Shown piece after piece: positions 19,448-42,518 of a DNA stretch of 64,000 nucleotides. The stretch's first letter is position 1. Each line of letters opens with the position of its first letter. The notes beneath the pieces were generated by a model. The model ran no database searches. It had not been told where the DNA came from and worked only from the letters and a program-made list of their open reading frames with translations. A program made the translations under genes and the position numbers. Origin of the DNA: Propionicimonas sp. (GTDB taxonomy: Bacteria; Actinomycetota; Actinomycetes; Propionibacteriales; Propionibacteriaceae); assembly GCF_029975155.1 (NCBI RefSeq), contig NZ_JARKPQ010000341.1, positions 1-64,000 on the forward strand, written 5' to 3'.

Positions 19448-19488
19448 CTCTGCCTCCGGCACTACTCTGCCACCGCCGGGGAGAATGG

Positions 19489-19563
19489 GGTCTCGACAAG
19501 CTCGACCAGCGGTTGGGGGTCTCGACCAGCGGTTTGGGGCGGGCGTCGACCAGCGATCTGGGG
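19489..19563. repeat. Dispersed repeat B, tandem degenerate copies
   Basis: Three partial copies of GGTCTCGACAAGCTCGACC followed by AGCGGTTGGGG. This GACAAGCTC-type repeat is common between actinobacterial genes. It marks the 3' end of the cai-fix-like operon; other copies lie at 23384-23406 and 26097-26146 inside the operon and a fragment near 33367. Confidence 0.75.
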
Positions 19564-19571
19564 CAGCCGGC

Positions 19572-19862
19572 TCAGCCGTAGCGGTACTCCACGCCCATCG
19601 TGGGCTGCGGGTACTCCCAGCTCGCGACGATGCCACCACCGGCGACGATCCGGCACGTGCCGCATTCCAGGCATCCGGCGTAGTCGAAGGCCTGTTCACC
19701 GGCGTCCCCCACTTTGTACAGGGCGGCCGGGCAGACCCGGACGAGCTTGCCGAACTCCACCGGGTCGGGGTGCTCGACGAGCGTGATGTGCGCGTGGCCC
19801 TCGTCCACCTCGTACTTGTTGAGGCCGAGGTACTCGTCGACGTTCACGGTGATCGGTTTCAC
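19572..19862 (-). CDS. fixX: Ferredoxin-like protein FixX
   Basis: 96-aa ferredoxin-like protein, the partner of FixC. CLECGTCR and the preceding VCPAALY provide the cysteines of one 4Fe-4S cluster, as in FixX (about 95 aa). It would pass electrons between the FixAB flavoprotein and the FixC quinone-reactive protein. GTG 19862 overlaps the fixC stop (GTGA). It is the last gene of the operon, followed by repeat B. Confidence 0.92.
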   Translation of the reverse strand: MKPITVNVDEYLGLNKYEVDEGHAHITLVEHPDPVEFGKLVRVCPAALYKVGDAGEQAFDYAGCLECGTCRIVAGGGIVASWEYPQPTMGVEYRYG

Positions 19863-21145
19863 AGTGCCTTCACTCCCCTGCTGAGGTCCTTGGCCAGGTT
19901 CAGGTAGCCGACGCGCTTCGCCAGCGGCAGCATCGTCTTGCGCACCGGCTTCACCGGCGTCCCGTCGACGAGGAACAGCGACCGCATCGCGTCCCGCGCC
20001 AGCACCGGGTAGGTGTCGAAGATCCGGGACGTGCTCTCCATGAAGTGCGGGAACCGCCGCAGGGTCTTCAGGTCCTGCAGCACGAAGCTCTCCTCCAGCG
20101 CCGTCCGGTAGCCGGACAGTCCGGCCGCCGAGGTGTCCCCGGCCTCCAGGGCCGCGGCGGCACTGCGTCCGGCCTGCTGGCCGGCGGCGATCGCGAAGTC
20201 CATGCCGCGGACGGTGTAGCCGGCGTTCACGCACATCAGCGCCGACTCCCCGGCCAGCAGCACGCCGTCACCGACGAGCGGTGGCATCGCGTCGTAGCCG
20301 CCTTCGGCCACCAGGTGCCCGGAGTGCTCGACCACGGTGCCGCCGGCGATGATCGGCGCCACGCTCGGGTGCTGGGTGAAGTCCTCGAGCATCTGGTAGA
20401 TCGGGGTCTCCGCGTCCACCAGGTCGGCGACCGTGGCCACCAGGCCGATCGAGATCGTGTCCCGGTTGGTGTACAGGAAGCCGCCCCCGACCCGGCCGTG
20501 AGTGGCGTCGCCGACGAACAGCCAGGCCATGCCCTCGCCGTCCGCGCACAGCGACCGGTCGGAGATCACCTTCTCGGGCAGTTCGATGACCTGCTTGATC
20601 CCCACCGCCACCTGGTCGGGCGATGGACGCTCCGCACCGACCGCCTGCGGCACCAGCAGGGAGTTCACCCCGTCACAGAGCAGCACCACGTCCGCGGTGA
20701 TCTCGTCCTCGCCGGCGCGGACGCCGGTGACCCGGCCGTCCCGCGTCAGCAGCGCCTCCACGGCGATGCCGTTGATGAACTCCGCTCCGGCCTCCTCCGC
20801 CTGACCGGCCAGCCACGGGTCGAACCGGGCCCGAAGCACCGAGTACGACTCGTACCGCTCGTCGCGCATCAGGTCGTCCGAGACGTCCAGCGTGGTCGCG
20901 GCATCGGACGCGAGCATCGTCACCCGCTCGCGCGTGATCCGCCGCTCCAACGGCGCCGATTGCGCGAAGTCGGGGAAGACCGCCCGCAACGAGTGGGTGT
21001 ACAGCCGTCCGCCCGAGACGTTCTTGGCACCGCAGAAGGTGCCGCGCTCCACCACGAGCACGCTCTTGCCGGCCTTGGCCAGCTCGTACGCTGCCACCGG
21101 TCCGGCGCAACCGGACCCGACCACGATCGCATCGAAATCAGCCAC
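19859..21145 (-). CDS. fixC: FAD-dependent ETF:quinone oxidoreductase-like protein FixC
   Basis: 428-aa flavoprotein of the FixC/ETF-QO family. The N-terminal FAD motif is IVVGSGCAGPVAAYELAKAG (residues ~6-25) with VLVVERG after it; GVNSLLV and GESALMCVNAGYTVRG are the later FAD-contacting family motifs. With FixA, FixB and FixX it forms an electron-transfer chain that can couple flavoprotein, quinone and low-potential electrons. It overlaps the MFS gene by 8 bp at its start and fixX by 4 bp at its end. Confidence 0.92.
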   Translation of the reverse strand: MADFDAIVVGSGCAGPVAAYELAKAGKSVLVVERGTFCGAKNVSGGRLYTHSLRAVFPDFAQSAPLERRITRERVTMLASDAATTLDVSDDLMRDERYESYSVLRARFDPWLAGQAEEAGAEFINGIAVEALLTRDGRVTGVRAGEDEITADVVLLCDGVNSLLVPQAVGAERPSPDQVAVGIKQVIELPEKVISDRSLCADGEGMAWLFVGDATHGRVGGGFLYTNRDTISIGLVATVADLVDAETPIYQMLEDFTQHPSVAPIIAGGTVVEHSGHLVAEGGYDAMPPLVGDGVLLAGESALMCVNAGYTVRGMDFAIAAGQQAGRSAAAALEAGDTSAAGLSGYRTALEESFVLQDLKTLRRFPHFMESTSRIFDTYPVLARDAMRSLFLVDGTPVKPVRKTMLPLAKRVGYLNLAKDLSRGVKAL

Positions 21146-22493
21146 GACGCGTCCTTTCTTCTCGATGATGAGGACGCAGCGAACTCGCCTCGCCCAGGGT
21201 GAGACCGCGGGTCTCGGGGGCCATGAACACCGACAGCACCAGGGCCAGGAGCACCAGCCCGGCGCCGGTGAGCATGGTGGGGCCGATCCCGTAGGCGCCC
21301 AGGAAGAGCGGCAGCCCGTAGGTCGAGACCACGACGCCGATCCGGCTGATCGCGATGGCCACCCCGACCGCGGTGGCGCGCACCTCGGTCGGGAACATCT
21401 CGTTCGGGTAGAGCCACTGCAGGATCCCCGGTCCGCCGGAGAAGAAGGCGTAGATGCCGAAGGCGGCGATGATCACCACGACCGGAGCGCCCGGCCAGAT
21501 GCCGGGGATCAGCAGGCCGAGCGCCATCAACGCCAGCGAGCCGATCAGCAGCGGACGGCGGCCCAGCGAGTTCAGCCAGAACATCGCCGGGATCGTGCCG
21601 ACCAGGAAGAACAGGCTCACCAGCGCCTCGCCCAGCACCGCCAGGCTGCCCTCGCCGAGACCGAACGCAGACATGATCATCGGCCCGAAGGTGTACATCG
21701 CGTACATCGGCACCACCTGGCACAGGATCAACAGGCCCAGGTAGATCACCCGGCTGAGGTAGCCCTGCCGGAAGACGGACGCGAAGCCGGCACGGGCGGG
21801 CTCCTGGTCGTCCAGGTGGACGTCCTCGCCGAAGACCCTGACCATCACCTCGCGGGCCTGATCGGTCCGTCCGTGCTGCGCGAGCCAGCGCGGCGACTCG
21901 GGGATGTCGTGGCGTCCGACCAGCAGGACGATGCAGGGGATCAGCGCGCGGCCCAGCATCCACCGCCACCCGTCGTCCACCGTGTACAGGGCGAAGCCGA
22001 CGAACGCCGCCGCGGTGGCGCCGAGGTACCAGGCCGCCGAGACCATGCCCATGGTGATCGCCCGCTCGGCGCGCGGGCTGAACTCGGCGATCAGCGAGGT
22101 GGCGATCGGGTAGTCCGCCCCGATGAAGAAGCCCAGCAGCAGTCGCAGCACGATCAGCTGCCAGGCCGCGGTGACGAAGCAGGCGGCCAGCGAGGTGAGG
22201 CCGATCGCGATCACGTCCAGGATGAACATCCGTCGCCGCCCGAGCGCGTCGGTCAGCCGGCCGCCGGCGAGCGAGCCGAAGAAGATGCCGGCGAGGGCCG
22301 CCGCGCCGGTCGCGGCGACCTCCACGTCCGACAGCCCCAGTGCCGGCGTCAGCTGGATCAGCGCCACCCCGATCAGCGACAGCACATAGCCGTCCAGGAA
22401 CGACCCGCCGCTGGAGAAGAACATGATCTTCTTCAGGAAGCGGTTCATCTGGGCGTCGTCGATCAGCCGCCCCGCCCCCAGGCCTACGTCCAT
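21138..22493 (-). CDS. MFS transporter (sugar porter-like) in the cai-fix operon
   Basis: 451-aa major facilitator with 12 membrane segments. GGRLTDALGRRRMF is the loop 2-3 signature, PESPRWLAQHGR is the sugar-porter motif after helix 6, and LYPNEMFPTEVRATAVG is in the second half. In E. coli the equivalent operon uses the BCCT antiporter CaiT. No BCCT gene is present here, so this protein or the OFA-type transporter at the operon head is the likely substrate importer. ATG 22493 overlaps the 3' end of the hydratase gene by 10 bp; a later in-frame ATG (MNRFLKK) is possible. Confidence 0.85.
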   Translation of the reverse strand: MDVGLGAGRLIDDAQMNRFLKKIMFFSSGGSFLDGYVLSLIGVALIQLTPALGLSDVEVAATGAAALAGIFFGSLAGGRLTDALGRRRMFILDVIAIGLTSLAACFVTAAWQLIVLRLLLGFFIGADYPIATSLIAEFSPRAERAITMGMVSAAWYLGATAAAFVGFALYTVDDGWRWMLGRALIPCIVLLVGRHDIPESPRWLAQHGRTDQAREVMVRVFGEDVHLDDQEPARAGFASVFRQGYLSRVIYLGLLILCQVVPMYAMYTFGPMIMSAFGLGEGSLAVLGEALVSLFFLVGTIPAMFWLNSLGRRPLLIGSLALMALGLLIPGIWPGAPVVVIIAAFGIYAFFSGGPGILQWLYPNEMFPTEVRATAVGVAIAISRIGVVVSTYGLPLFLGAYGIGPTMLTGAGLVLLALVLSVFMAPETRGLTLGEASSLRPHHREERTRRG

Positions 22494-23356
22494 TCGATGA
22501 CGCCCCAGTTGAGGTGCGGTTTGGCCTCGGGATTGTCCGCGTCCACGAGCCGGAAGCGGGCCTCGTGCTCGCCGACCTGCCACAGTTGCGTGGTCAGCGT
22601 CGAGCCGGGGTGCACCGGCGAGGTGATCCGGGTCTTGAACCGGGTGAGGCGCTCGGGCTCGTCCGGGATGAAGGTGCTGATGAAGTGCCGCATCACCACG
22701 CCGGCGTAGCTGATCGCGTGCAGGATCGGCCGGGGCTCGCCGTTCTCGGCGGCGTAGTCCCAGTCGATGTGCTGCGGATGGAAGTCGCCGGAGAGCCGGT
22801 AGATCAGTGCCTGGTTGAATGGGATGGTCTCGACGACCTCGGCGTCCGGCGCGCGGTCGGGCATCTCGACGACGTCCTTCGGCGCGGCCGGACCACCCCA
22901 GCCGCCGTCGTAGATCAGGCAGTCCCAGGACTCGTTGGTGCACAGCAGGGTGCCGTCGGAGTCGAAGGTGTCGCCGATGTGCTGGGCGAGCAGGCCCTTG
23001 CCCTCGCCGCGGTCGTACAGCCCGGCCAGCTGGACCTTGGTCTCGACGCGGTCGCTCAGCTTCGTGATCGGCTGGTGGAACCGGATGTCGAAGCCCCAGT
23101 GCAGCGAGCCGGCGTAGTTGTAGCCGTAGTCGATGGTCCGGGTCACCTCGGAGTCGACGATCAGCATCGCCGCGAACATCGGCAGCACCTTCAGCCGCGG
23201 CTCCCGCTCGTCGTGCTCGTTGAGGTAGATCAGGTCCTGCCTGCCGTCGATCCCCGCGCCGCAGCCGAGCGCGAACAGCTCCAGATCGCGGAAGGTGTAG
23301 TCGCGGACGAACGGGCCGAAGGTCTGGCCCACCATCTCGGTCTTGATCCTGCCCAT
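22484..23356 (-). CDS. MaoC-type double-hotdog hydratase, possible CaiD replacement
   Basis: 290-aa protein with two hotdog halves, similar in plan to the hydratase-2 part of multifunctional enzymes. The C-terminal active-site motif reads YRLSGDFHPQHIDWDYA (about 186-202). Catalytic Asp191 and His196 are kept, but the usual Asn of GD-x-N-P-x-H is His193. The N-terminal half has YAGSLHWGFDIRFHQP. It lies exactly where a crotonobetainyl-CoA hydratase (CaiD, crotonase fold) would be expected, so hydration of an enoyl-CoA such as crotonobetainyl-CoA is a reasonable inference. The substitution may change specificity. Confidence 0.8.
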   Translation of the reverse strand: MGRIKTEMVGQTFGPFVRDYTFRDLELFALGCGAGIDGRQDLIYLNEHDEREPRLKVLPMFAAMLIVDSEVTRTIDYGYNYAGSLHWGFDIRFHQPITKLSDRVETKVQLAGLYDRGEGKGLLAQHIGDTFDSDGTLLCTNESWDCLIYDGGWGGPAAPKDVVEMPDRAPDAEVVETIPFNQALIYRLSGDFHPQHIDWDYAAENGEPRPILHAISYAGVVMRHFISTFIPDEPERLTRFKTRITSPVHPGSTLTTQLWQVGEHEARFRLVDADNPEAKPHLNWGVIEWT

Positions 23357-23383
23357 GTGTTCAGTTCCTTTCCTTGTCTTTCG

Positions 23384-23406
23384 GGTTTCGACAGCTCAAC
23401 CAGCGG
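23384..23406. repeat. Dispersed repeat B between the hydratase and caiC-like genes
   Basis: GGTTTCGACAGCTCAACC followed by AGCGG. The stop codon of the caiC-like gene (23396-23398) lies inside the repeat, so its last residues are repeat-encoded. Confidence 0.75.
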
Positions 23407-25153
23407 TGGATGAGTCCGTCGCGGCGCGGGACGTGGCGTGCAAGAGGCGTTTCTCGATCTTCATCGAGCGGGTGCGGGGGAAGTCGTCGACGAACTCCAC
23501 GAACTGCGGCACCTTGTAGGGCGCCAGCAGGCCGCGGCAGTGCTCGATCACCTCGGACGCGGACAGCCGCGCCCCCGGCTGCAACCGGACGAAGGCCTTC
23601 ACGGCCTTGTCCCGGACGGGATCGGGGACGCCGACCACCGCCGCCTCGGCGATCAGCGGATGGCTGGTGAGCGTGCACTCGACCTCGGTCGTCGAGACGT
23701 TCTCCCCCGCCCGCTTGATCACGTTCACGGACCGGTCGACGAAGTAGAACCAGCCGTCGGCGTCGGCGTACCCCTCGTCGTGGGTGCGCAGCCAGCCGTC
23801 GGGGCTCAGCGCGGCGACGGTGCTGTCGGGGTCGTCGTGGTAGCCCAGCATCAGGCTGCGGCCCGGGACCCCTTTGATCCGGAACTCGCCGACCTGGCCG
23901 GGCGGCAGCTCGCGTCCCTGGCAGTCGAAGATGCCGACCTCGTAGCCGAGCCCGGCCCGTCCCACCGACGGCCAGCGGCGCTCGCCCTGCGGCGGGTCGG
24001 TGACCGCCCAGCCGATCGACTCGGTCGAGCCGTAGGAGTTCAGCAGCCGGACGCGGAAGCGCCGCTCGAACTCGGCCTTCTCCGGGTCGCTCAGCGGCAT
24101 GAAGTACAGCGCGTCGCGCAGGTCGTGGCAGCCGTCGTCCGCCGACGGAGGCTGCAGCAGCAGGGTGCGCGCCATCATCGCGATCAGCTGGACGATCGTC
24201 GCCCGCTCCTCGCGCACCTGCCGCCAGAAGCGGTGGGCGGAGTACCGCTCGGCCATCACCAGGGTCGCGCCCGCGACCAGCACCGGCGTCAGCGCGGCCA
24301 GCTGGAAGTTCGAGTGGCACGCCGGCATCGTGGTGAACAGCCGGTCGTCGGGGCGCAGCGACGTCTGCCACACCCCGTAGTGCCCGGAGAACACGAGGTT
24401 GGCGTGGGTGATCATCACGCCCTTGGGCGCCGCGGTGGTGCCGGAGGTGTAGAGCAGTTCGGCCACGGTGTCGCTGGTGATGGGTGCGTCCGTCACCAGC
24501 AGGTCGGACTGCGCCGCGCAGAGGGTCGCGTAGCAGTGGACGCCGCCGCCCTCGGTCATCCCGGACTCGATCCGGGATCCCGTGACCGACAGCTCAGAGA
24601 TCCCGGCATTCGCCGGGACGACATCGTCACGTACCGTCATCCCGCACTCGATCCGGGATCCCGTGACCGGCAATTCAGAGATCCCGGCGTTCGCCGGGAT
24701 GACGGTGGGAGGGAAACCGATGACGGTGGGCGGGGTCTCCGCGACCACGAGCAGCCCACCCGCATCCGGACGCAGGCGCAGGTGGTCGTCGAGGCGGCAC
24801 TCCTCCACCACTGCCCACCGAGCGCTGCAGGCCTCGTAGGCCTGCAGCAGCTCGGAGGGGGACGCGTCGAGGCTGAGGGGTACCGCGATCGCGCCGATCT
24901 CGGCCAGGCCGAACAGGGCGGTGAGCATCTCCGGACGATTGCGCAGCTGCAGCATCACCGGGTCGCCCAGGCCGATGCCGACGCTCCGGAAGGCGTGTGC
25001 GGCCCGGTGGACCAGCGCGGCGAACTCCGCGTAGCTGAACTCCGTCCGCTGGTCGGAGGCGTCCAGGTGCACCAGGAACTGGCGGTCGCCGAACGACCGG
25101 CAGGCCGTGTCCCACAGCGTCGCCGTGGTCACGCCGGTCGCGATGTCAGCCAC
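23396..25153 (-). CDS. caiC: CaiC-like acyl-CoA ligase (carnitine/crotonobetaine-CoA ligase type) with in-frame repeat insertion
   Basis: 585-aa ANL-superfamily ligase resembling E. coli CaiC throughout: YTSGTTAAPKGVMITH (P-loop), QLIAMMARTLLLQPPSA, LLNSYGSTESIGW, ERRWPSVGRAG, DGWLRTHDEGYADADGWFYF, VNVIKRAGENVS. It would activate the substrate as a CoA thioester using ATP, priming the CaiB CoA-transferase. It is about 65 aa longer than E. coli CaiC because residues ~151-200 are encoded by two tandem palindromic repeats (VIPANAGISE...), placed between the N-terminal part and the P-loop. The C-terminal catalytic lysine region SMKIEKR is present. Whether the insert is tolerated is untested; the frame is intact. 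Confidence 0.88.
   Translation of the reverse strand: MADIATGVTTATLWDTACRSFGDRQFLVHLDASDQRTEFSYAEFAALVHRAAHAFRSVGIGLGDPVMLQLRNRPEMLTALFGLAEIGAIAVPLSLDASPSELLQAYEACSARWAVVEECRLDDHLRLRPDAGGLLVVAETPPTVIGFPPTVIPANAGISELPVTGSRIECGMTVRDDVVPANAGISELSVTGSRIESGMTEGGGVHCYATLCAAQSDLLVTDAPITSDTVAELLYTSGTTAAPKGVMITHANLVFSGHYGVWQTSLRPDDRLFTTMPACHSNFQLAALTPVLVAGATLVMAERYSAHRFWRQVREERATIVQLIAMMARTLLLQPPSADDGCHDLRDALYFMPLSDPEKAEFERRFRVRLLNSYGSTESIGWAVTDPPQGERRWPSVGRAGLGYEVGIFDCQGRELPPGQVGEFRIKGVPGRSLMLGYHDDPDSTVAALSPDGWLRTHDEGYADADGWFYFVDRSVNVIKRAGENVSTTEVECTLTSHPLIAEAAVVGVPDPVRDKAVKAFVRLQPGARLSASEVIEHCRGLLAPYKVPQFVEFVDDFPRTRSMKIEKRLLHATSRAATDSSTAG
24555..24703. repeat. Two tandem 68-bp palindromic repeats inside the caiC-like gene
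   Basis: Copies at 24555-24622 and 24636-24703, each with ends GTCATCCCG and CGGGA(T/C)GAC and a central GATCCCGTGACCG, separated by 13 bp. Period 81 bp (27 codons), so the frame is kept. On the coding strand they read VIPANAGISELPVTGSRIE and a near-identical second copy. Same family as 16906-16984. Confidence 0.9.
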
Positions 25154-25178
25154 CGTGGGTTCCTTCCCTTCGGCTCGC

Positions 25179-26072
25179 TCAGAGGCTCTTCGCCAGCTCG
25201 GGCAGCACCTGGTACAGGTCGCCGACGACGCCGAAGTCGGCGTGGGCGAAGATCGGCGCGTTCCTGTCCCTGTTGACCGCGACGATCACCTTCGAGTTGT
25301 TCACGCCGACGAGGTGCTGCACCTGGCCGGAGATGCCGACGGCGAGGTAGAGGTCGGGCTTGATCGTGGCGCCCGACACCCCCAGGTATCGCTCGGCGGG
25401 CATCCAGCTGACCCCCTCGGCGATCGGACGGCTGCAGGCCAGTTCCGCACCGAGCTTGGCGGCGAGCGCGCGGGCCAGCTCCAGGTCGGCCTCGGCCGCG
25501 AAGCCGCGGCCCACACCGATCACCCGCTTGGCGGCGGCCAGGTCGACGGTCTCCCCACCCTTCGCGCGGGTCTCGACCAGGGTCATCCCGGGCGCCGGCT
25601 CGGCCGCCACGACCTCGACGGCGCCCGCCCCGGCCACATCGGACGCCGGCACGGCGCCCGGCGTGAGGACGAGTACCGCCACCTCAGCGGTGACCTCCTC
25701 CGTCGCGGTCGCCAGGCCGCCGAACGCCATCCGGGTGACCACCAGCGGCTCGCCGGGGACGACGCCGGTGACCGTCACCGGGCTGACGCCGAGGTGGGCG
25801 GCCACCTGGCCGGCCAGCAACCGGCTCTGGGCGCTCGCGTCGGCGACGACCAGCCTGGCGCCACGGGAGCGCAGCAGGTCGGCGACCGACCTGGCGTACG
25901 CCTCGGCGAGGACGGTCGGGCCGGCGGCATCGATGATCAGGGTGAGGTCGGCGGCGGGAAGCGCGCCCGCGCCGATGCTGACGGCGTTCACGTTCTCGCC
26001 GAGCGCCCGCGCGGAGCGGGCCAGCGCGTTGCCCGCGACCGGGTCGTGCGCGAGGATCCATACGTCTGTCAT
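25179..26072 (-). CDS. fixB: Electron transfer flavoprotein alpha subunit, FixB
   Basis: 297-aa ETF alpha subunit. The C-terminal FAD domain has VIGVGRGFAAEADLELARAL, CSRPIAEGVSWMPAERYLGVSG, PDLYLAVGISGQVQHLVG and VIVAVNRDRNAPIF, all hallmark ETF-alpha motifs. With FixA it delivers electrons to the CaiA-like acyl-CoA dehydrogenase (reductase direction in E. coli carnitine metabolism). Start ATG 26072. Spaced 25 bp from the caiC-like gene and 73 bp from fixA, where repeat B has been inserted. Confidence 0.93.
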   Translation of the reverse strand: MTDVWILAHDPVAGNALARSARALGENVNAVSIGAGALPAADLTLIIDAAGPTVLAEAYARSVADLLRSRGARLVVADASAQSRLLAGQVAAHLGVSPVTVTGVVPGEPLVVTRMAFGGLATATEEVTAEVAVLVLTPGAVPASDVAGAGAVEVVAAEPAPGMTLVETRAKGGETVDLAAAKRVIGVGRGFAAEADLELARALAAKLGAELACSRPIAEGVSWMPAERYLGVSGATIKPDLYLAVGISGQVQHLVGVNNSKVIVAVNRDRNAPIFAHADFGVVGDLYQVLPELAKSL

Positions 26073-26096
26073 GAGGGTCTGCTCCTTGGTGGTGGG

Positions 26097-26146
26097 GGTT
26101 TCGACAAGCTCAACCAGCGGTTTGGGGTCGACCAGCGGTTGGGGGC
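26097..26146. repeat. Dispersed repeat B between fixA and fixB
   Basis: GGTTTCGACAAGCTCAACC followed by AGCGGTTTGGGG and a second partial copy. It fills most of the fixA-fixB gap and abuts the fixA stop codon. Confidence 0.75.
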
Positions 26147-26886
26147 TAGAGGGACTTGAGGAAGGTGGCCAGCTGGGCTGCGGTCTCGGCGGGATCGCCT
26201 TCGACCACCGTCCGGCGGCGGTCCACCTGCTCGGGGGCGAGCAGCGAGACCAGGCGGGTGGACGCGGCCGGCAGGGTCGCGGACGCCTCCGTCACCGGCT
26301 TCTTGCCGGCGGCGAGGATGTCCTTCATGCCGGCGATCCGCGGCACGTTGATCGCCGACGTGACACTCACCACGGCCGGCAGCGAGACCTCGACCACCTG
26401 CTCGGCGTCCTCCAGCAGCCGCTCGACGCGCAGCTGCTCACCGTCCGCAGCCAGCCTGTTGACGTAGTTCAACGTAGGCACCCCCAGCAGGGCGCCGAGC
26501 TGGTTGCCGACCTGCTGGGCGTAGCGGTCGGAGCTGCCCGCGCCGAGCACGACCAGGTCGACGCCGAGCTCACCGAGCGCGGACGCCAGCGCACTGGCGG
26601 TCTGGTAGCTGTCGGCATCCGGGCTGCCCGGCACGATCACGAGGCTGTCGAGGCCGCGCGACAACGCGTCCTTGCGCAGCTTGGTGTTGGCCAGTTCGTC
26701 CCCACCGACGGTGAGTCCGATCACCTCACCGCCGACGGCGTCGGCGAGCTGGCGGGCGGCCTCGATGGCGTTGAGGTCGTAGGAGCCGACCTTCCACTGG
26801 GCGCGGGAGAAGTCCAGCGCCCGGTCGCCGCTGACGACGATGTCGGCGTCGTCGGGAGCGGCCTTGATGCAGGCGACGATTCGCAT
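26146..26886 (-). CDS. fixA: Electron transfer flavoprotein beta subunit, FixA
   Basis: 246-aa ETF beta subunit beginning MRIVACIKAAPDDADI. Family motifs are LNAIEAARQLADAVGG, VIGLTVGG, LVVLGAGSSDRYAQQVGNQL and LPAVVSVTSAINVPRIAGMK. Heterodimer partner of FixB. The gene follows the caiB-like gene by 12 bp and belongs to the same operon. FixAB-FixCX complexes in some bacteria bifurcate electrons; here the presence of all four genes makes that possible but unproven. Confidence 0.93.
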   Translation of the reverse strand: MRIVACIKAAPDDADIVVSGDRALDFSRAQWKVGSYDLNAIEAARQLADAVGGEVIGLTVGGDELANTKLRKDALSRGLDSLVIVPGSPDADSYQTASALASALGELGVDLVVLGAGSSDRYAQQVGNQLGALLGVPTLNYVNRLAADGEQLRVERLLEDAEQVVEVSLPAVVSVTSAINVPRIAGMKDILAAGKKPVTEASATLPAASTRLVSLLAPEQVDRRRTVVEGDPAETAAQLATFLKSL

Positions 26887-26898
26887 GGTTGTCCTTCC

Positions 26899-28113
26899 TC
26901 AGACGGATTGCTTGACGACGCCGGCCTCGATCAGGCGGGCGACCTCTTCGGGGGAGTAGCCGAGCCGGGCGAGCACGTCCGAGCTGTCGTAGCCCTGCGC
27001 GGGCATCGGCCGCCACACCTGGCCCGGGTGCTGGCCGAAGCGCGGGAACACGCCGAGGCCCTTGAACGGCTCGCCGTCCGCGGTCTGCCAGTCGAGCCAG
27101 ACCCCGCGCTCCTTCAGATGCTCCTCGGCCACCAGATCGGGGAACTCCATCACCTTCTGCGCCGCGATCCGGTGCGCGGAGAAGTCGGCCTCCACGTCGG
27201 CGACGTCGCGGGTGGCCAGGTACTCCTCGAGCTTGGCCTCGATCAGCTGCGCCTTCGGGCTGGACAGCCACAGCGCGCTGCAGTCCTCGGGATAGTCCGG
27301 GGTGCCCCACAGCTCACCGAGCCCGATGGCCTCCAGCAGGTACTTGTTCTGCGGGACGCCGTACACGCACAGGCCGATGAAGCCGTCCGCGCACCGGTAC
27401 TCGCCGATCGCGCACAGGTTCTGGTTGCGCGCGCCCGGACGGGGCCAGATCACGCCGGCGTTCAGGTAGTCGACCAGGTAGTACTGACCGATGGCGAGCA
27501 GGGTCTCGTACATGGCCACGTCGATCGACTCGCCGCGTCCGGTCTGGGCCACCTTGTGCAGTGCGCCGAGCGTGGAGCTGAGGATCATCAGCGAGTTGAC
27601 GTAGTCGCCGGCGTACGGGCCGGGGTTCATCGGCTGCTCCGGGGTGCCGTTCTGGGCCATGTAGCCCGAGTACGCCATCACGGTCAGGTCGTAGGCGGCC
27701 CGGGAGACCATCTCGGGGACGCCCGTCTGGCCGAACCCGGAGACGTGGACGATGACCAGCTTCGGGTTGACCGACCACAGCAGCTCGTCGGTGATCCCCT
27801 TCTTGGCCCAGGTGCCGCCCTTGCTCGACTCGATGAACACGTCCGCGTCCGCGAGCATCCGCAGCAGCACCTGCTTGCCCGCGTCGGAGAAGTAGTCCAG
27901 GGCGACTGAGCGCTGGTTGCGCCGTTCGGCCTGCTTGACCCAGGCGGTGTCGCGAATGGTGTCACCGGCGCCGGTGTTCTCCAGCCAGGTGACGTCGGCG
28001 CCCCATTCGGCCATGATGCAGCAGGCCTTGGGGACGGCGAGCTCGACCGCCGCATAGACGACCTTGAGATCGTCGAGGACGCCGAAGGCCGGCTTTTCCT
28101 GTGCGAGTTCCAC
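26899..28113 (-). CDS. caiB: CaiB-like CoA transferase (class III)
   Basis: 404-aa family III CoA-transferase close to E. coli CaiB in length and sequence: IMAEWGADVTWLEN, ASKGGTWAKKGITDELLW-like SSKGGTWAKKG, PKLVIVHVSGFGQTG, GESIDVAMYE and NPGQVWRPMPAQG. The catalytic Asp lies in PYAGDYV (equivalent to the Asp of TADYF in E. coli). It would swap CoA between the enoyl/acyl betaine-CoA and the incoming substrate. The glycine loop of the N-terminus is altered (AVPKACC), so specificity may differ from true carnitine. Confidence 0.9.
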   Translation of the reverse strand: MELAQEKPAFGVLDDLKVVYAAVELAVPKACCIMAEWGADVTWLENTGAGDTIRDTAWVKQAERRNQRSVALDYFSDAGKQVLLRMLADADVFIESSKGGTWAKKGITDELLWSVNPKLVIVHVSGFGQTGVPEMVSRAAYDLTVMAYSGYMAQNGTPEQPMNPGPYAGDYVNSLMILSSTLGALHKVAQTGRGESIDVAMYETLLAIGQYYLVDYLNAGVIWPRPGARNQNLCAIGEYRCADGFIGLCVYGVPQNKYLLEAIGLGELWGTPDYPEDCSALWLSSPKAQLIEAKLEEYLATRDVADVEADFSAHRIAAQKVMEFPDLVAEEHLKERGVWLDWQTADGEPFKGLGVFPRFGQHPGQVWRPMPAQGYDSSDVLARLGYSPEEVARLIEAGVVKQSV

Positions 28114-28124
28114 GGTTCTGCCTT

Positions 28125-29261
28125 TCAGCTCGCGTAGGCGCGCAGGACGCCCTTGGCCGCGGTGAGGATCATCATTTCGTCGGTGCCACCGCTGATCCGG
28201 TCCACCCGGAGGTCACGCCAGATCCGCTGGACGCGGTGGTCGCCGGCCACGGACACGCCGCCCATGACCTGCATGGCGTCGTCGACGACGGCGAACGCGG
28301 CGTTCACGCAGTAGTACTTGCACATGGCGGCCTGCGCGGAGGTCATCTCGTCGGTGTCGTAGTGCCAGGCCGCCTCGTAGACCATGTTCTTCATCGCGTT
28401 GAGCTTGATCGCCATCTCGCAGAACTTGAGCTGATTGAGCTGGAAGCGGCCGATCGGCTTGCCGAACTGCACGCGGACGTTCGCGTAGCGCGCGGCGTCC
28501 TCGAAGGCCGACAGCGCGACGCCGTAGTCGCTGACCGCGACCAGGAACCGCTCGAAGTCGAAATCCTTGATGCCGCGGTTGAAGCCGTTGCCCTCGCGGC
28601 CGAAGATGTCGGACTCGTCCAGCTCGACGTTGTCGAGGTAGACGTCGGAGCAGCTGTCCATGCGCAGGCCGAGCTTGTCCAGCGGCTCGATCCGGACGCC
28701 CGGCAGGCTCATGTCGAGGAAGAACTCGGTGAAGCAGGACGGATCGTCGGCGTTGCGGGCCATCACGACCAGGAACGGCACGTGCGCCGACGAGGTGATG
28801 AAGGTCTTGTGGCCGTTGAGGTAGATCCTGCCGTCGCGGCGGGTGTAGGTGGTCTGCAGGCTGCCGACATCGGAGCCGGCGCCCGGCTCGGTACAGGCGG
28901 AGTTCCAGATCTGCTTGCCGGTGCCGACGTAGGCCAGCACCTTGTCGATCTGCTCGGGGCTGCCCTCACGCAGGATCGTGTCGAAGCACGGCAGCTGGTA
29001 GAGCACGTAGGTGGGCGCGCCCCAGCGGCCCAGTTCCTCGTAGACCGCGGTCAGCGTGACCAGGCCCAGGTCGAGGCCACCGTGCTCCTCCGGCAGCATG
29101 ATCAGGTCGAAGCCGAGGTCGCACAGCGCCTTCACCCAGCGCTCGGGGTAGGTGTGGTCCCGGTCGCACTCGGCGAAGTAGGCCTCCCAGTTCTCGCGCT
29201 GCATCAGCTCGCGGACGTTGTCGACGAGCAGCTGCTGCTCGTCGTTGAGCCTGAAGTCCAT
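28125..29261 (-). CDS. caiA: CaiA-like acyl-CoA dehydrogenase (crotonobetainyl-CoA reductase type)
   Basis: 378-aa acyl-CoA dehydrogenase strikingly like E. coli Cai[88 protein letters not shown]. In E. coli this enzyme reduces crotonobetainyl-CoA to gamma-butyrobetainyl-CoA using FixABCX electrons. ATG 29261 has AAGGAGA six bases upstream, excluding the much longer open frame before it. Best-conserved member of the operon and the strongest reason for the cai assignment. Confidence 0.93.
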
Positions 29262-29275
29262 TCGATTTCTCCTTG

Positions 29276-30262
29276 TCATTCCTTGTCGAGTGCGCGCCGC
29301 AGGAAGGCGCCACCGTTTGCCAGGGCGGTCGCGGCCGCGTCGAGCATCCGGGAGTTGTGCAGGAAGGCGTGCAGGACGCCGGGGAACACCTCGTGGCTGC
29401 AGGTGACGCCGTGCTCGGAGAGGATCGCGGCGAGCGTGGCGGTGTCGTCGCGGAGAGGGTCGAACTCCGCAGCCACGAGGTAGGTCGGAGGAATGCCCCG
29501 GCCGAGGTCGGCGCCGAGGCAGTCCACGTAGGGACTGCGCGCGTCCGCCGGGTCGGCCAGGTAGCAGTCGAGGTAGTAGTCGAAGTCGGCGTCGGTCAGC
29601 CCGTCCCACGGCCCGCCGAGCAGCCGGCGGGACGCGGAGTCGCGCAGCCCGTACATGCCGTAGTAGAGCGCCAGAGCCGAGACTCCGACGGAGGGCAGGC
29701 CCGCGTCCGCCTGGTCGCGCAGGAGCAGGGTGGTGGCCAGGCACATCGTGGCGCCGCCGCTGTCCCCCGCGAACGCCAGCCGGGAGCCGTCGACCGAGTG
29801 CTCCGACCCGCGCTCGTGCAGGTGCCGCGCCACCGCGGCGCACTGCTCGAGCGCGACCGGGAACTTCGCCTCCGGGGAGAGCGCGTAGTCGATGCCCACG
29901 ACCGCGGCGCCCGATTCGTGGGCGAGCATCCGCATGATCCGGTCGTGGGTGTCGAGGTTGCCCACAACCCAGCCGCCGCCATGGATGTAGACGACGACCG
30001 GTAGCTCCGTCCCCGTGACGGGCAGGTGGCAACGGATCGCCACCGGCCCGTGCGGGGTCGGCACCTGCGCGTGGATCGTCCGCGCCATGGCCGGACCGCC
30101 CTCGTTCCAGAAGCGACGCTCGCGCAGGTAGGCCTGCCGCAGCTCGTCGAGGCCGGCGTCCGTTGCGTAGGCGTCGGGTGCGAGTTCGGCGGACGTGGCC
30201 AGCACGGCGCGCATCTGGTCGGAGATCCGGTCCAGGACGGGCAGCTTGTTGTGGGCAACCAT
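29276..30262 (-). CDS. Alpha/beta hydrolase, hormone-sensitive lipase-type esterase
   Basis: 328-aa carboxylesterase. Oxyanion motif HGGGW (about 93-97), nucleophile Ser in GDSGGA, acid Asp in EFDPLRDD and His in GVLHAF complete the HSL-family triad. No signal peptide, so it acts in the cytoplasm. It is not part of the E. coli cai-fix set; here it lies second in the operon, 14 bp before the caiA-like gene. An inference is that the imported compound is an ester (for example an O-acyl derivative) that must be hydrolysed before CoA activation. Confidence 0.85.
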
Positions 30263-30271
30263 CGTCGTGTC

Positions 30272-31594
30272 CTAGGCAGCCGCTACCTCGACCGGGACCT
30301 CTGCCGAGACCGGTTCACGCCGCTTGCGCAGGTACAGCCACAGCGCCAGCGAGGAGATGGCCGCGAGGATGGCCGAGCCGATCAGGATCCAGAAGATCTG
30401 CTGGTAGGCGCCGGCGGCGACGTTCCCTTCCGCGTCGGTCTGGGCGTCCATGATCGCCCCGAACCACGTGCTGGAGAAGGTGTCGGGCAGGAAGCCGATG
30501 ATCGACAGGATGCCGGTGGCTGCGCCGAAGTGCGTCAGCGGCACCTTGCCCTCGGTCAGCTGGGCGGAGACGACGCCGAACGCGCCGTTGGCGATGAAGC
30601 CGAGCAGCACGACCAGGACGCAGGCGATCACCATCACGCTGGGGCCGGTGGGCAGGAACATCATCACCAGCAGGGCGCCGACGAAGACCAGCGAGCCGAT
30701 CGCGATCACGATCGAGGGCCGGAACTTGTTGGCGATCTGGCCGAAGATCGGCCCGGAGAGCAGGGTGATGCCGTAGTTGCGGACGTTGGCGACGATCGTG
30801 GCCGCAGCCAGCGAGACGCCGAGGATGCCGGTCATGTAGGGCGTCGTGTACGTGACGCCGGTGTAGTAGAAGTACACGAAGAACAGCGAGATCGCGGCGA
30901 TCCAGACCACCGGGTCGCGGAAGGCCAGGGTGAACTCGACCAGGCTGAAGCCGCCCTCGGTCTTGATCTCGCCGGCGAACTTCGGGATGAACGCCCAGGA
31001 GAGGACGCCGAGGATCAGGATCACGGCGCTGAGGAAGTACAGGTAGATCGAGACGCCGAGGCCGAGGTTCTCCCCCACCGCGGCGACGATGGCCGTGGAG
31101 ACGAGGCCGATCAGCAGGCCGGCGACGCCGTAGATGCCGTAGGAGAGGCCGATCCGCTTGGGGTACTCGTCCTCCTTGGAGACCAGGCGGACCAGCTTGT
31201 AGCGCACGCCCCACCAGATCAGGATCGTGGTGATGCCCATCAGGATGAACACGATGTAGAGGACGGTCAGGCTCGGCAGCATCGCGTAGACGAAGGTGAG
31301 CACGGCCGTGGAGATGAAGCCGACCGACGACAGGGTGCGCATCCGAACCTTGTCGGCGAGGATCCCCGACGGCAGGTAGCAGATCAGCGCGGTGATCGCG
31401 TAGGCGCCGAAGACGGCACCGAGTTCGGTGTTGGTGACGCCCAGGGCCTGCTGCAGCGGGTCGTAGAAGACGGCCTTCAGGTAGGCGGGCGCGTAGATGA
31501 TCGAGCTGCCGATGCTCGCGAGGATGAGCAGGAACCAGCGCCGTCCAGAACTCAGGTCGGCGTAGGTCTTCTCGTTGCTCGGTGAGTTCGCCAT
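30272..31594 (-). CDS. OFA-type MFS transporter heading the operon
   Basis: 440-aa major facilitator with 12 membrane segments, similar to the oxalate/formate antiporter-like group: [27 protein letters not shown] in the first repeat, and [24 protein letters not shown] in the second. The C-terminus ends in a basic/acidic cytoplasmic tail. As the promoter-proximal gene, it is the first product made on induction and is the best candidate importer or antiporter for the operon substrate. The start ATG 31594 has GAAGGAG upstream (31599-31605 region). Confidence 0.85.
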
Positions 31595-31906: not shown

Positions 31907-33343
31907 ATGAGCGAAGGTCCGCAGCAGCGGGCGAACACGGTGTTGGCGAGCGTCGTGCTCGGGCCGCGGCTGAAGTACCTGGGCCTCACCCTGGTGCTGG
32001 CGTGGCACTACTGCCTGTGGTTCGTGCCGAGTTCGTTCCCGACGACGTTCCTGCTGGACGACCGGATCACGTTCGCCTGGCTGATCGCCCTCGCCGCCGC
32101 GGCGGGGGTGCCGCTGGTGCTGGCGTGGCAGCTGGGACGCCGACGGCACCTCGAGGCCAGGCCGGCGCTGGTGTGGTCGGTGTCGCTGCTGGGTTCGGTG
32201 GCGACGATGATGCTGTGCACGCTGGGGATGCTGGCCGAGACGCAGTGGGTGGCGTACGCGTCCGCGTTGGTGGTGGGTGGCTGCGCCGGGGTGCTGTGGG
32301 TGCTGTGGGGCGAGCGGCTGGCGTGCCAGAAGGCGAAGTTCACGCTGGGACGCGTGGCGCCGACCTACGGCGGCTTCCTGCTGGCGCTGGTCGGTGTGAC
32401 CTATGTCGCGCCGGGATGGCTGGCACCGATGATCGTGGCGGTGCTGCCGTTGCTGTCCGGGCTGCTGCTGTGCGCCCAGGTGCGGGAACTGCCGCAGTGC
32501 CACCCGAGGCTGCTGCCGGCGAAGGCGGCGATCCAGGGCAAGAACACGATGGTCACCGTCACGGTGATCTCGTTCGTGGCGGCGTTCGTCTGCTACTACA
32601 CGGTGGCGATCGTGCCGTGGGAGGCGCTGGACCCGGTACAGGACGCGTTCACCCTCGGCATCGTGATCGGGGCGGCGCTGATCCTGCTGTTCGCGGTGCT
32701 GCAGCGGACGTTCCGGGACGGCCGGTCGGCGTTCCGGGTGTACCCGTGGCTGCTGCTGCTGATCGTGGTCGCCTGCGTGATGTACCTGGCGGACGACCGG
32801 CTGGACGGCGCGGCGTTCCTGCTGGCGGTGGCGATCTCATCGCTGTTCGAGATCCTGCTGACGCTGTACATGGGCGTGCTGACCCAGCGGGGGTATGCGC
32901 CCCCGGCGATCGCATTCGCGCTGTCCGGCAGCGCCATCCGGCTCGGGATCTGCCTGGGCAACGGCACCGCGCTGGTGTACGAGCGGGTGCCCGGGTGGCA
33001 CGACGTGCTGGTGCGGCCAACGTTCGTGCTCCTGGTGGCGGTGGTGGCCGGGCTGCTGATCACCATGGTTCGCCAGGAGTACGCGATCGAGGAACTGACC
33101 CGCAGCCCGCAGGCGACGTCGGAGCTGGCAGCGATCGTGAACTCGGTGGCCGAGGAGTTCCTGCTGTCCGAGCGCGAGCGGGAGATCCTGGGCCTCGTCG
33201 GCCACGGCTACACCGCCTCCGCCGTGGCCGAGAAGCTGGTGATCTCCCCCTACACCGTCAACACCCACATCCAGCACATCTACCGCAAACTCGGCATCCA
33301 CAAGCGCTCGGAGCTGATCGGCTACCTTCACCGAAGCGGCTGA
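31907..33343 (+). CDS. Polytopic membrane protein with C-terminal LuxR DNA-binding domain
   Basis: 478-aa protein. The first ~395 residues hold about 12 hydrophobic segments in a transporter-like layout (YLGLTLVLAWHYCLWFVPSS, AWLIALAAAAGVPLVLAW, and so on). The last ~65 residues are a LuxR/NarL helix-turn-helix: LSEREREILGLVGHGYT, ASAVAEKLVISPYTVNTHI, YRKLGIHKRSELIGYL. Regulators of this build are typical of Coriobacteriia such as Eggerthella, where they sit beside inducible metabolic operons. It would sense the substrate in the membrane and act on DNA directly. It is divergent from the cai-fix-like operon. ATG 31907 has GGAGAGGG upstream. Confidence 0.9.
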   Translation: MSEGPQQRANTVLASVVLGPRLKYLGLTLVLAWHYCLWFVPSSFPTTFLLDDRITFAWLIALAAAAGVPLVLAWQLGRRRHLEARPALVWSVSLLGSVATMMLCTLGMLAETQWVAYASALVVGGCAGVLWVLWGERLACQKAKFTLGRVAPTYGGFLLALVGVTYVAPGWLAPMIVAVLPLLSGLLLCAQVRELPQCHPRLLPAKAAIQGKNTMVTVTVISFVAAFVCYYTVAIVPWEALDPVQDAFTLGIVIGAALILLFAVLQRTFRDGRSAFRVYPWLLLLIVVACVMYLADDRLDGAAFLLAVAISSLFEILLTLYMGVLTQRGYAPPAIAFALSGSAIRLGICLGNGTALVYERVPGWHDVLVRPTFVLLVAVVAGLLITMVRQEYAIEELTRSPQATSELAAIVNSVAEEFLLSEREREILGLVGHGYTASAVAEKLVISPYTVNTHIQHIYRKLGIHKRSELIGYLHRSG

Positions 33344-33469: not shown

Positions 33470-34588
33470 CTAGGCCAACCGGTAGCGCTCCATGGCGTCG
33501 GGGTCGAGGGCGACACCGAGGCCGGCCGCGTCGGGCATCCGGATGATCGCCCGCTCGTCGGGACGGATCGGGTCGCTGATCAACTCGTCCCGCAGCGGGT
33601 TCGGCTGTCCGTCGAACTCGAAGAGGCCCCGGTTGGTGCACGAGGCGAGCAGGTGGAGGTTCGCGGCGAGCCCGATCGCCGAGGTGTACACGTGCGGCGT
33701 GAACGTGCGGTGCCAGGCGTCCGCCAGATCGGCGATCCGCTTGACGTTGGTGATGCCACCGGCCCAGATCGTGTCAGCCTGCACGACGTCCACCGCACCT
33801 CGGGTGATCAGGTCCCGGAACGCGAAGAGGGACGTCTGGGACTCGTACCCGGCGATCGGCACCGCACTGCGGGCGGCCACCACGACGGCTCCGTCGATGT
33901 CGTCGGCGAGAATCGGCTCCTCGAGCCACGCGATGCCGGAGTCCGCGACCCGTCGAGTGAACTCGATGGCTTCCCCGGCCGTGAAGCCGCAGTTGGCGTC
34001 GAGCATGAGCAGGAAGTCGTCACCGACAGCCGATCGCACGGCGTGAATGCGGCGAGAGTCCTCCCTGACGCCCAGGCCACCGACCTTCAGCTTGGCTGCC
34101 GAGAAGCCGCGCTCCCGGTACTCGAGTACTTCGGCGATGATCGGGCCGTCGGAGAGGTCGGGTCCGTACAGTCCACCGCTCGCGTAGCACTCGAGCTCGG
34201 ACGTCGCGCCGCCCAGCAACTGGTACACGGGCAGGCCTGCGGCCTTGCCCATGATGTCCCACAGGGCGATGTCGATGCCGCTGATCGCAGCCATCACGAT
34301 GCCGCCGCGGCCGAGGTGCACCGTGGACTGGTACATCATGGTCCACAGCTGCCGGGCGTAGCGGGGATCCCTGCCGATCAGCAACGGCTTCAGTTGCCGG
34401 CAGACGACGCTGGCCACGGCCTCGGAGGCACCTCCGAAGGTCGCGGACTCCCCGACACCGGTGATGCCCTCATCGGTGTCGATCTCGATGACCATGCAGT
34501 CGCGATAGCGAATGTGAAGATGCGCATCCCACCTTTCCTGCGGCAGGTTGTAGCGGAGGACATGGATGCGGATGTCGCTGATCTTCAT
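33470..34588 (-). CDS. Mandelate racemase-subgroup enolase-superfamily dehydratase
   Basis: 372-aa enolase-superfamily enzyme. The KxK motif is Lys166/Lys168 in AAKLKVG, metal ligands are Asp197 (LDAN), Glu223 (WLEEP) and Glu249 (GYES), and the His299/Asp272 dyad is present, so it belongs to the mandelate racemase subgroup. These enzymes mostly dehydrate acid sugars to 2-keto-3-deoxy acids. The neighbours (sugar-type ABC importer, KDG-type kinase, KDPG-type aldolase) support that role. Last gene of the minus arm, 71 bp after the permease gene. The specific sugar acid cannot be read off. Confidence 0.88.
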   Translation of the reverse strand: MKISDIRIHVLRYNLPQERWDAHLHIRYRDCMVIEIDTDEGITGVGESATFGGASEAVASVVCRQLKPLLIGRDPRYARQLWTMMYQSTVHLGRGGIVMAAISGIDIALWDIMGKAAGLPVYQLLGGATSELECYASGGLYGPDLSDGPIIAEVLEYRERGFSAAKLKVGGLGVREDSRRIHAVRSAVGDDFLLMLDANCGFTAGEAIEFTRRVADSGIAWLEEPILADDIDGAVVVAARSAVPIAGYESQTSLFAFRDLITRGAVDVVQADTIWAGGITNVKRIADLADAWHRTFTPHVYTSAIGLAANLHLLASCTNRGLFEFDGQPNPLRDELISDPIRPDERAIIRMPDAAGLGVALDPDAMERYRLA

Positions 34589-34659
34589 GGAATTTCTCTT
34601 CCTATCCCATTTGATTTACAGGGGTGGTCAGTAATGCTCAATCGAAACAAGGGTGCACC

Positions 34660-35475
34660 TCAGCCCTTGACCGCGCCGAAGGCCATTCCCCGAACGAGGA
34701 ACGGCTGGGCGAGGAAGGTGCAGACGACGACGGGAATGATCCCGAGCATGATCGTCGCGCCCAGCTGCTCCCAGAGAATCTGGCTCGTGTCACGCTGGAA
34801 CGTGGCCAGGTAGGCGGGAAGGGTCTGGCTGCCCGACGTCGACAGGACCTTGGCCAGGAGGAACTCGTTCCAGGAGTAGAACGCGCTCAGGGTCGCCGCG
34901 GCCGCGATGCCTGGCCGGACGATGGGCAGGGCTACTGCCCAGAAGATCTGCCATTCGTTCGCACCGTCGATCCTGGCGGCCTCGTCCAGTTCCTTGGGCA
35001 CGTCCTCGAAGAAGGACCTCATCATCCACACGACGAACGGCGTGTTGAAGAGCGCCTGAGCCAGGATCACCGCCAGCAGCGAGCCCTGGATGCCGATTCG
35101 GACGGAGAGGTAGTAGAGGGGAATCGCGATGATGATCGGCGGCACGAGGAGGGTCGTGAGGATCACGAACATGAGTCTTTCCTTGCCGCGGATCGCGAAT
35201 TTCGCCAGCGCGTAGGCGCCGAGCGTTCCGGCCGCGACGGACAGCGCCACGGTCGCGATCGCGACCACGATGCTGTTGGCCAGATACGGCAGGGCCACCC
35301 AGAACGTGGCACCGTAGTTACCAGTCGTGGGTGGGAAGATGAACTGCGGTGGATTTGCGTTGGCCACGTCCCGTGGCTTCAGCGAGAGCAGGAAGGTCCA
35401 GTAGAGCGGGAAGACGGTCGCGACCAGGGCCAGGCCCAGCAGTCCGGCCAGCAACCCTCGCCAGAGCCCCCTCAT
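34660..35475 (-). CDS. ABC sugar-type permease, MalG-like
   Basis: 271-aa CUT1-type permease with six membrane helices. The EAA loop reads DEAARIDGANEWQIFWAVALP, split here as EAARIDGA-N-EWQIF, which docks the ATPase. The C-terminus ends GMAFGAVKG, as in MalG-like proteins (GLTAGAVKG). ATG 35475 overlaps the stop of the partner permease (ATGA). No ATPase gene is in the window, so a shared MsiK/UgpC-type ATPase must energise the importer, as is usual in actinobacteria. Confidence 0.92.
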   Translation of the reverse strand: MRGLWRGLLAGLLGLALVATVFPLYWTFLLSLKPRDVANANPPQFIFPPTTGNYGATFWVALPYLANSIVVAIATVALSVAAGTLGAYALAKFAIRGKERLMFVILTTLLVPPIIIAIPLYYLSVRIGIQGSLLAVILAQALFNTPFVVWMMRSFFEDVPKELDEAARIDGANEWQIFWAVALPIVRPGIAAAATLSAFYSWNEFLLAKVLSTSGSQTLPAYLATFQRDTSQILWEQLGATIMLGIIPVVVCTFLAQPFLVRGMAFGAVKG

Positions 35476-37891: not shown

Positions 37892-37955
37892 GATCTCCCC
37901 GTTCCATGTCCTCGTTCCAGCCGACGGCCACCCGTCCGGCTCGACGTCGTGCAGA

Positions 37956-39347: not shown

Positions 39348-39359
39348 CCTTGTCTCCTG

Positions 39360-41029: not shown

Positions 41030-41070
41030 ACCGGCATCCTAGGGTAAGTCAGAGCTTCGTGTAAACAGGT

Positions 41071-41088
41071 TCTCCAGAATATAGGAGA
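41071..41088. promoter_or_regulatory. Candidate GntR operator in the divergent promoter
   Basis: Inverted repeat TCTCC-N8-GGAGA centred in an AT-rich stretch of the 107-bp divergent gap. A -10-like TATGCT for the plus arm lies at 41105-41110. Binding here would cover promoters of both arms. Confidence 0.45.
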
Positions 41089-41136
41089 TTATGAGGTTCA
41101 CTGTTATGCTGACGGCAGTCGAGCAGGGAGGTCGTG

Positions 41137-42492: not shown

Positions 42493-42518
42493 TTCAACAG
42501 AAAGGAAGTGCTCGGTTC

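Follow-up and report, generated by a model that had tools for sequence, protein, structure and literature searches.

The 64,000-nucleotide stretch of Propionicimonas sp. analysed here (contig NZ_JARKPQ010000341.1, positions 1 to 64,000; hereafter the window) contains an eleven-gene operon that represents a variant form of the Escherichia coli cai/fix system and not a system of a new kind, with another kind of hydratase and other transporters. We interpret it, with a probability of about 0.62, as a reductive carnitine/crotonobetaine pathway in which a MaoC-type protein acts as the crotonobetainyl-coenzyme A (CoA) hydratase. A first-pass annotation made from the sequence had offered, as one option, that carnitine metabolism was rebuilt here from non-homologous parts, and this is the best-supported reading because CaiA and CaiB pass the cut-offs of curated equivalog models, MaoC occupies the place of caiD in the E. 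coli gene order, and neither a CaiD-grade crotonase nor a BCCT transporter gene was found elsewhere in the genome.

Gene content of the operon and the missing caiD and caiT

The eleven genes lie closely spaced on the minus strand from position 31594 down to 19572, with spacing as in one transcription unit: the gaps from MFS1 to MaoC measure, in order, 9, 14, 11, 12, 73, 25 and 39 bases, and the last four genes (MaoC, MFS2, FixC and FixX) overlap one another. Proteins were named with Pfam and NCBIfam profiles and compared with those of E. coli K-12 by BLASTP. The gene list of the first-pass annotation, consisting of CaiA, CaiB, CaiC, four Fix proteins, MaoC, two major facilitator superfamily (MFS) transporters and an esterase of the hormone-sensitive lipase (HSL) type, proved correct for every member, its place and its strand.

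The crotonobetainyl-CoA reductase/dehydrogenase CaiA (28125..29261) had been called strikingly close to the E. coli enzyme, and so it is: the two are 68% identical across the whole length, and the protein scores 701.6 bits against a cut-off of 540 with the equivalog PRK03354 (crotonobetainyl-CoA dehydrogenase), the next-best model, PRK12341, being far lower (447 vs 702 bits). The class III CoA-transferase CaiB (26899..28113) passes the equivalog PRK03525 (L-carnitine CoA-transferase; 651.4 vs 413 bits) and matches the solved E. coli CaiB structure 1xk6 at E 5e-107. Homologs of all four members of the FixABCX electron chain are encoded in the operon at 38–56% identity to E. coli, namely the electron-transfer flavoprotein (ETF) beta-type subunit FixA (26146..26886; Pfam ETF; 45%), the alpha-type subunit FixB (25179..26072; Pfam ETF_alpha and ETF; 38%), the ETF:quinone oxidoreductase-like flavoprotein FixC (19859..21145; 50%) and the ferredoxin-like FixX (19572..19862, with a GTG start read from the sequence at 19862; 56%). 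FixA passes PRK03359 (219.9 vs 219 bits) and FixC passes the subfamily model PRK10015 (482 vs 466) while staying below that for FixC proper, PRK10157 (465.4 vs 610); FixB lies below its NCBIfam cut-off, as does FixX (108.1 vs 166 bits).

At the head of the operon stands the transporter MFS1 (30272..31594; Pfam MFS_1), for which its position suggests a role as carnitine, crotonobetaine or gamma-butyrobetaine carrier in place of CaiT. It is followed by the Aes-type esterase (29276..30262), which passes NCBIfam PRK10162 (acetyl esterase; 421.2 vs 389 bits), has the acetyl esterase 4krx as its best PDB match and is proposed here to be an acylcarnitine or betaine-ester hydrolase. The CaiC-like betainyl-CoA ligase (23396..25153), 40% identical to E. 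coli CaiC and nearest to PRK08008 (crotonobetaine/carnitine-CoA ligase), precedes MaoC (22484..23356; Pfam MaoC_dehydratas and MFE-2_hydrat-2_N) and the second transporter, MFS2 (21138..22493), whose ATG start, read from the sequence at 22493, overlaps the end of maoC. Two features go beyond the first-pass list: a LuxR-type regulator divergent from the operon, and the 51% identity of MFS2 to E. coli YaaU. Since yaaU directly follows fixX in E. coli, MFS2 is probably an old partner of the Fix genes and not an unrelated addition.

The operon thus shares with E. coli caiTABCDE and fixABCX (plus yaaU) the homologs of CaiA, CaiB, CaiC, FixA, FixB, FixC and FixX, a YaaU-like carrier beside the Fix genes, and a core order of A, B and C with the hydratase after C, such that caiT-A-B-C-D is paralleled by MFS1-Aes-CaiA-CaiB-(FixAB)-CaiC-MaoC. 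It differs in that MaoC takes the place of caiD, an MFS carrier stands at the head, an Aes-type esterase is added, the adjoining regulator is of the LuxR type, and the genes form one operon instead of two divergent ones.

The absence of CaiD and CaiT, also claimed by the first-pass annotation, holds for the window and for the genome. No protein of the window matches E. coli CaiT, CaiD, CaiE or CaiF at E 1e-3, and CaiD or CaiT elsewhere in the genome, which would have spoken against the reading, was looked for and not found: a profile search returned no BCCT protein, and among the crotonase family (four matches, read as three genes) the best scored 134.9 bits against a CaiD cut-off of 500, an absence that is not absolute in a draft assembly of 5.0 Mb in 404 contigs with a stated completeness of 100% and contamination of 8.31%. 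The nearest model of that best crotonase is a short-chain enoyl-CoA hydratase, whose cut-off it also misses (331.4 vs 394). Among 39 genome rows with the operon, which reduce to 30 distinct genomes after nine duplicates by identical CaiA, none passes the cut-off of the CaiD model NF002936. BCCT genes occur in three of the 30: Campylobacter has a CaiT ortholog (74% identical to E. coli) and a second BCCT gene (26%), and the proteins of the other two genomes are 24–25% identical to CaiT. Near the best crotonase of the Propionicimonas genome there is a second FixX-like stretch (L001:3503-3739), 49% identical to E. coli FixX over residues 18–95.

In the proposed pathway, MFS1 and/or the YaaU-like carrier would exchange betaines across the membrane, and the Aes-type esterase would release carnitine from esters. 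CaiC and CaiB, judged by their families, would load and swap CoA, and MaoC, by its position, fold and linkage, would take the role of CaiD in interconverting carnitinyl-CoA and crotonobetainyl-CoA. CaiA would then reduce crotonobetainyl-CoA to gamma-butyrobetainyl-CoA with electrons delivered via FixABCX, and gamma-butyrobetaine would be exported, the betaine serving as electron acceptor.

Conservation of the operon and of its MaoC protein

When GTDB species genomes were scanned with CaiA, 26 loci came up, in Propionibacteriaceae, Cellulomonas, Actinotalea, Coriobacteriia/Eggerthellaceae (including named Gordonibacter and Eggerthella species), further actinobacteria and one Campylobacter. The order recurring in the actinobacterial loci is MFS1, Aes, CaiA, CaiB, (FixA, FixB), CaiC, MaoC and the YaaU-like gene. 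Where the contig reaches upstream of CaiA, MFS1 lies ahead of it in 23 of 24 actinobacterial loci (the exception being L018) and the esterase was detected in 18 (not in L014–L018 and L029); relatives of the LuxR-type regulator likewise adjoin the operon in 18 of 24. FixAB lies outside the caiB-caiC interval in most Eggerthellaceae/Coriobacteriia loci, either further downstream or not seen.

Of the 21 actinobacterial loci that cover the place between CaiC and the YaaU-like gene, 19 have MaoC there (one, L012, cut by a contig end), a count that leaves out L005, L011, L020 and L030, where the contigs end before it, and the Campylobacter locus, which has no MaoC. The two covered loci without MaoC, L022 (Senegalimassilia) and L023, both have a crotonase adjoining the operon; L022 comes from a genome with a MaoC gene at another place. 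For L005 and L020, whose genomes are G171 and G185 by identical CaiA, MaoC was found on another contig; as the contigs of L005, L011 and L020 stop before the MaoC place, counts of MaoC labels on the CaiA tree were not used as evidence. Within that tree, Cellulomonadaceae rows fall inside the window's clade of 8 rows (support 100/99), a placement that points to transfer between families.

In 197 genomes of the window's family, CaiA was found at no less than 61% identity in 14, and MaoC at no less than 72% in the same 14, own genome included. Seven more genomes had MaoC matches at E 0.001, all at most 37% identical, and a fifteenth (G116) had a CaiA-like match of 44%; neither was counted. Second CaiA-like genes of 44–45% identity in two genomes (G008 and G032) were set aside as another acyl-CoA system, their loci (L073 and L074) carrying CaiB-like, CaiC-like and distant crotonase genes and no MaoC match. 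A sample of 394 genomes of the class adds nothing on linkage, as CaiA and MaoC were each found in the own genome only (1/394). Assembly contamination is an unlikely source of the operon, given that this CaiA and MaoC recur in seven other genomes of the genus, and chance or mis-annotation is ruled out by the recurrence in other genomes and by purifying selection on the genes.

A plasmid of Curtobacterium carries homologs of MaoC (76%), MFS1 (49%), CaiC (47% across its better-matching part) and CaiB, the last split over two frames (65% and 58%), and no match to CaiA, the Fix proteins or YaaU in the 33 kb stretch read; this combination would tie MaoC to the CoA-cycling half of the pathway. Searching all plasmids for CaiA at E 1e-60 returned 12 records, from Escherichia and Proteus only. 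The caiB of the Curtobacterium plasmid (L076:13127-14343), which has no listed gene, may be a pseudogene, its neighbours MFS1, CaiC and MaoC being open. In a single-contig relative (L057:9871-11115), caiB is likewise split into two neighbouring open frames and the frame for the esterase is short, a possible sign of operon decay.

The MaoC sequence aligns with hydratase 2 along most of its extent (1s9c, E 8e-33; 3khp, E 2e-33). Its predicted model (predicted local distance difference test score 82.4, predicted template modelling score 0.84) superimposes on 1s9c with Z 31.0 and a root mean square deviation of 2.4 over 273 aligned residues of 290, and on 1pn4 with Z 26.2, so that the protein is, as modelled, a full-length double hotdog of the hydratase-2 type. 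With the hydratase-2 and multifunctional enzyme type 2 hydratases (1s9c, 1pn4, 3kh8) it has in common this fold and the catalytic Asp and His (Asp191 and His196, kept in 25 of 25 orthologs); it differs from them in its linkage to cai genes and in the active-site substitutions weighed below. MaoC is under purifying selection like CaiA: its ratio of nonsynonymous to synonymous substitution rates is 0.09–0.20 against four relatives, near that of CaiA (0.10–0.16 in four pairs), these being Nei-Gojobori counts that are rough at this G+C, with rates for CaiC available for two of the four pairs.

Hydratase role, stereochemistry and substrate

The idea that MaoC merely stands in for CaiD, implied by the first-pass annotation, did not hold in that simple form. 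Among 138 Eggerthellaceae genomes, CaiA was found in 37, MaoC in 34 and a crotonase of the L023 type in 36. The 37 CaiA-bearing genomes comprise 30 with both MaoC and the crotonase, 5 with the crotonase only, 2 with MaoC only (those of L016 and L017) and none with neither, i.e., 35 with the crotonase and 32 with MaoC. Because the crotonase coexists with MaoC in 30 of 37, MaoC cannot merely replace CaiD in this family, and a simple replacement everywhere is ruled out. The crotonase lies near the operon in most regions examined. Seven such crotonases show only 39–43% identity to E. coli CaiD but 66–72% to a crotonase of Campylobacter gastrosuis that is encoded next to fixA and fixB. CaiT and CaiA of that species reach 74% and 76% identity to their E. 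coli counterparts; since its genome carries caiTABC, the Eggerthellaceae crotonases are, by sequence likeness, probably the working CaiD of their hosts. Pairwise identities were used for this comparison because the crotonase tree is poorly resolved, with long branches.

Campylobacter gastrosuis (L028 and L067) resembles the actinobacterial system in its Cai and Fix homologs, in the Aes-like esterase of its fixAB cluster and in its crotonase of the Eggerthellaceae clade, but differs in having a true CaiT, a crotonase and no MaoC match in the fetched stretches, and in the division of its genes over two contigs, the fixAB-crotonase cluster lying apart from caiTABC-fixCX. The cluster (L067:6098-11235) contains fixA, fixB, the CaiD-like crotonase, an SSF carrier and the Aes-like gene in a row. 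The Aes-like gene (41% identical, Pfam-supported) points to ester cleavage as a recurring element of the system.

Several observations weigh against the reading of the operon as a carnitine pathway with a MaoC hydratase, the coexistence with a crotonase being one of them. CaiB shares only 42% identity with its E. coli counterpart, CaiC falls below the curated cut-off of its nearest model (595.9 vs 651 bits), and caiC of this genome carries a repeat insertion. Three copies of MaoC, mutually 92–94% identical, are placed apart from cai genes; one of the three belongs to the L022 genome. Among Eggerthellaceae, two genomes that lack a CaiA match still carry MaoC, as one carries the crotonase. In the protein itself, the Asn of the hydratase-2 motif GDxNPxH is His (His193) and the Leu before the catalytic His is Gln (Gln195) in 25 of 25 orthologs, and the Gly of the catalytic triad (position 214) is Ala in 20 and Gly in 5. 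In a study of a Phytophthora MaoC protein, mutation of Asp194, of His199 or of Gly217, the last to Ala, is reported to abolish activity to differing extents (PMC3823801); by our own mapping, which relies on spacing, position 214 corresponds to that Gly217.

These active-site departures, and the MaoC copies found away from cai genes in three loci, would be expected if the pathway only reduced external crotonobetaine and MaoC were some other hotdog enzyme, e.g., a thioesterase or another hydratase, such that carnitine would be no substrate in the species with MaoC only. We consider this unlikely in view of the catalytic Asp and His kept in all orthologs, the strong purifying selection on MaoC, and its linkage to CaiB and CaiC on the Curtobacterium plasmid even where CaiA is missing. 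It is improbable, too, that the substrate is another short betaine or enoyl-CoA acid, or its ester, reduced through a chain of this type, the likeness of CaiA and CaiB reflecting their chemistry and not their substrate. The sub-threshold CaiC, the ester hydrolase in 18 of 24 loci and the restriction of a CaiT ortholog to Campylobacter among the 30 distinct operon genomes would agree with such a substrate, but CaiA clears its equivalog cut-off by 160 bits at 68% identity over the whole length, far ahead of the next-best model, and the Eggerthellaceae crotonase belongs to a clade found with caiTABC in Campylobacter.

If MaoC is the crotonobetainyl-CoA hydratase of a carnitine pathway, as we prefer, the enantiomer that it forms becomes the question. 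Crotonases form (S)-3-hydroxyacyl-CoA, and hydratase 2 forms the (R) isomer. By our own derivation from the Cahn-Ingold-Prelog rules, the CH2N+ branch of carnitine outranks the CH2CO branch, so that S-type geometry corresponds to (R)-, i.e., L-carnitine and R-type geometry to (S)-, i.e., D-carnitine. The formation of L-carnitine by CaiD fits this derivation, and D-carnitine is therefore predicted for MaoC if the behaviour of its family is kept. In the same way the modelled hydratase-2 fold predicts attack on the opposite face, and hence D-carnitine, unless the subfamily has changed. A 2024 paper relies on other MaoC hydratases being consistently R-specific (PMC11321319).

We hold L- and D-carnitine to be about equally likely products of a MaoC hydratase, which leaves the D-carnitine route as a whole a tentative proposal. 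In this route MaoC would be R-specific and form D-carnitinyl-CoA as the mirror-image partner of CaiD, and the crotonase would form L-carnitinyl-CoA. Opposite products would suit the joint presence of both hydratases in most CaiA-bearing Eggerthellaceae, the close likeness of the seven crotonases to that of Campylobacter gastrosuis, the R stereospecificity reported for other MaoC hydratases, and the geometry derived above. The species with MaoC only fit the D-carnitine route poorly, the natural supply of D-carnitine being probably small, and His193, Gln195 and Ala214 could have changed the face of attack. Should the route exist, genomes with both hydratases, e.g., those of gut Eggerthellaceae, could racemise carnitine through crotonobetainyl-CoA, and genomes with MaoC only would use D-carnitine or crotonobetaine only, with the D-specific branch alone feeding crotonobetaine respiration in Propionibacteriaceae and Cellulomonadaceae. 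The variant poses the question of whether a hydratase 2 was recruited for L-carnitine against the stereochemistry of its family or for a D-carnitine route.

In the gut, conversion of L-carnitine to gamma-butyrobetaine precedes the formation of trimethylamine, and the 37 of 138 sampled Eggerthellaceae genomes that carry this CaiA give the variant its relevance there. Surveys demanding the full E. coli gene set would miss the actinobacterial MaoC variant; the excerpted text of one survey and database of gamma-butyrobetaine producers accepts only genomes with all six of caiTABCDE (PMC11857547). The bbu cluster of Emergencia timonensis likewise handles gamma-butyrobetaine in a CoA-dependent way, using an acyl-CoA dehydrogenase homolog together with class III CoA-transferases, but acts downstream and releases trimethylamine. 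In the excerpt of its description, the six genes bbuA-F include a BCCT carrier, a ferredoxin and a thioesterase and no Fix-type or MaoC gene, and bbu-bearing bacteria are reported without a cai operon and vice versa (PMC8364193), the excerpted text making no mention of the present variant. Among the matches listed for open-licence PubMed Central papers (titles and starts of abstracts), we found no description of a MaoC hydratase in a carnitine operon, of carnitine reduction by Eggerthellaceae or of a link between YaaU and carnitine. The variant connects YaaU of E. coli (L056:808-2139), annotated as putative only, to carnitine and Fix metabolism: its relative MFS2 accompanies the cai/fix genes of actinobacteria, and YaaU may likewise serve as a carrier linked to carnitine or Fix.

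Regulator, repeats and neighbouring genes

The LuxR-type regulator (31907..33343, plus strand) has a Pfam GerE domain at residues 420–472 and a long N-terminal region that, judged by eye, looks membrane-bound. The insertion in caiC consists of two copies of a 68-base palindromic repeat (24555..24703, minus strand) that are 91% alike and in frame, adding about 50 residues to a loop of varying length among relatives. The repeat is dispersed, its core giving 212 matches genome-wide vs 0 for the reversed control. In CaiC of a related genome (L021:13992-15608), the same loop holds a peptide that looks repeat-derived, and insertions of such repeats may be tolerated at this site.

Just after fixX (19480-19580), words of the type CGCTGGTCGA are repeated several times. 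Upstream of the operon (33470-47793), the genes appear by eye to encode an enolase-superfamily enzyme, an ABC permease and binding protein, an amidohydrolase, a GntR-type regulator, two hydantoinase-like enzymes, an aldolase and a kinase, as judged from the first 60 residues of each protein.

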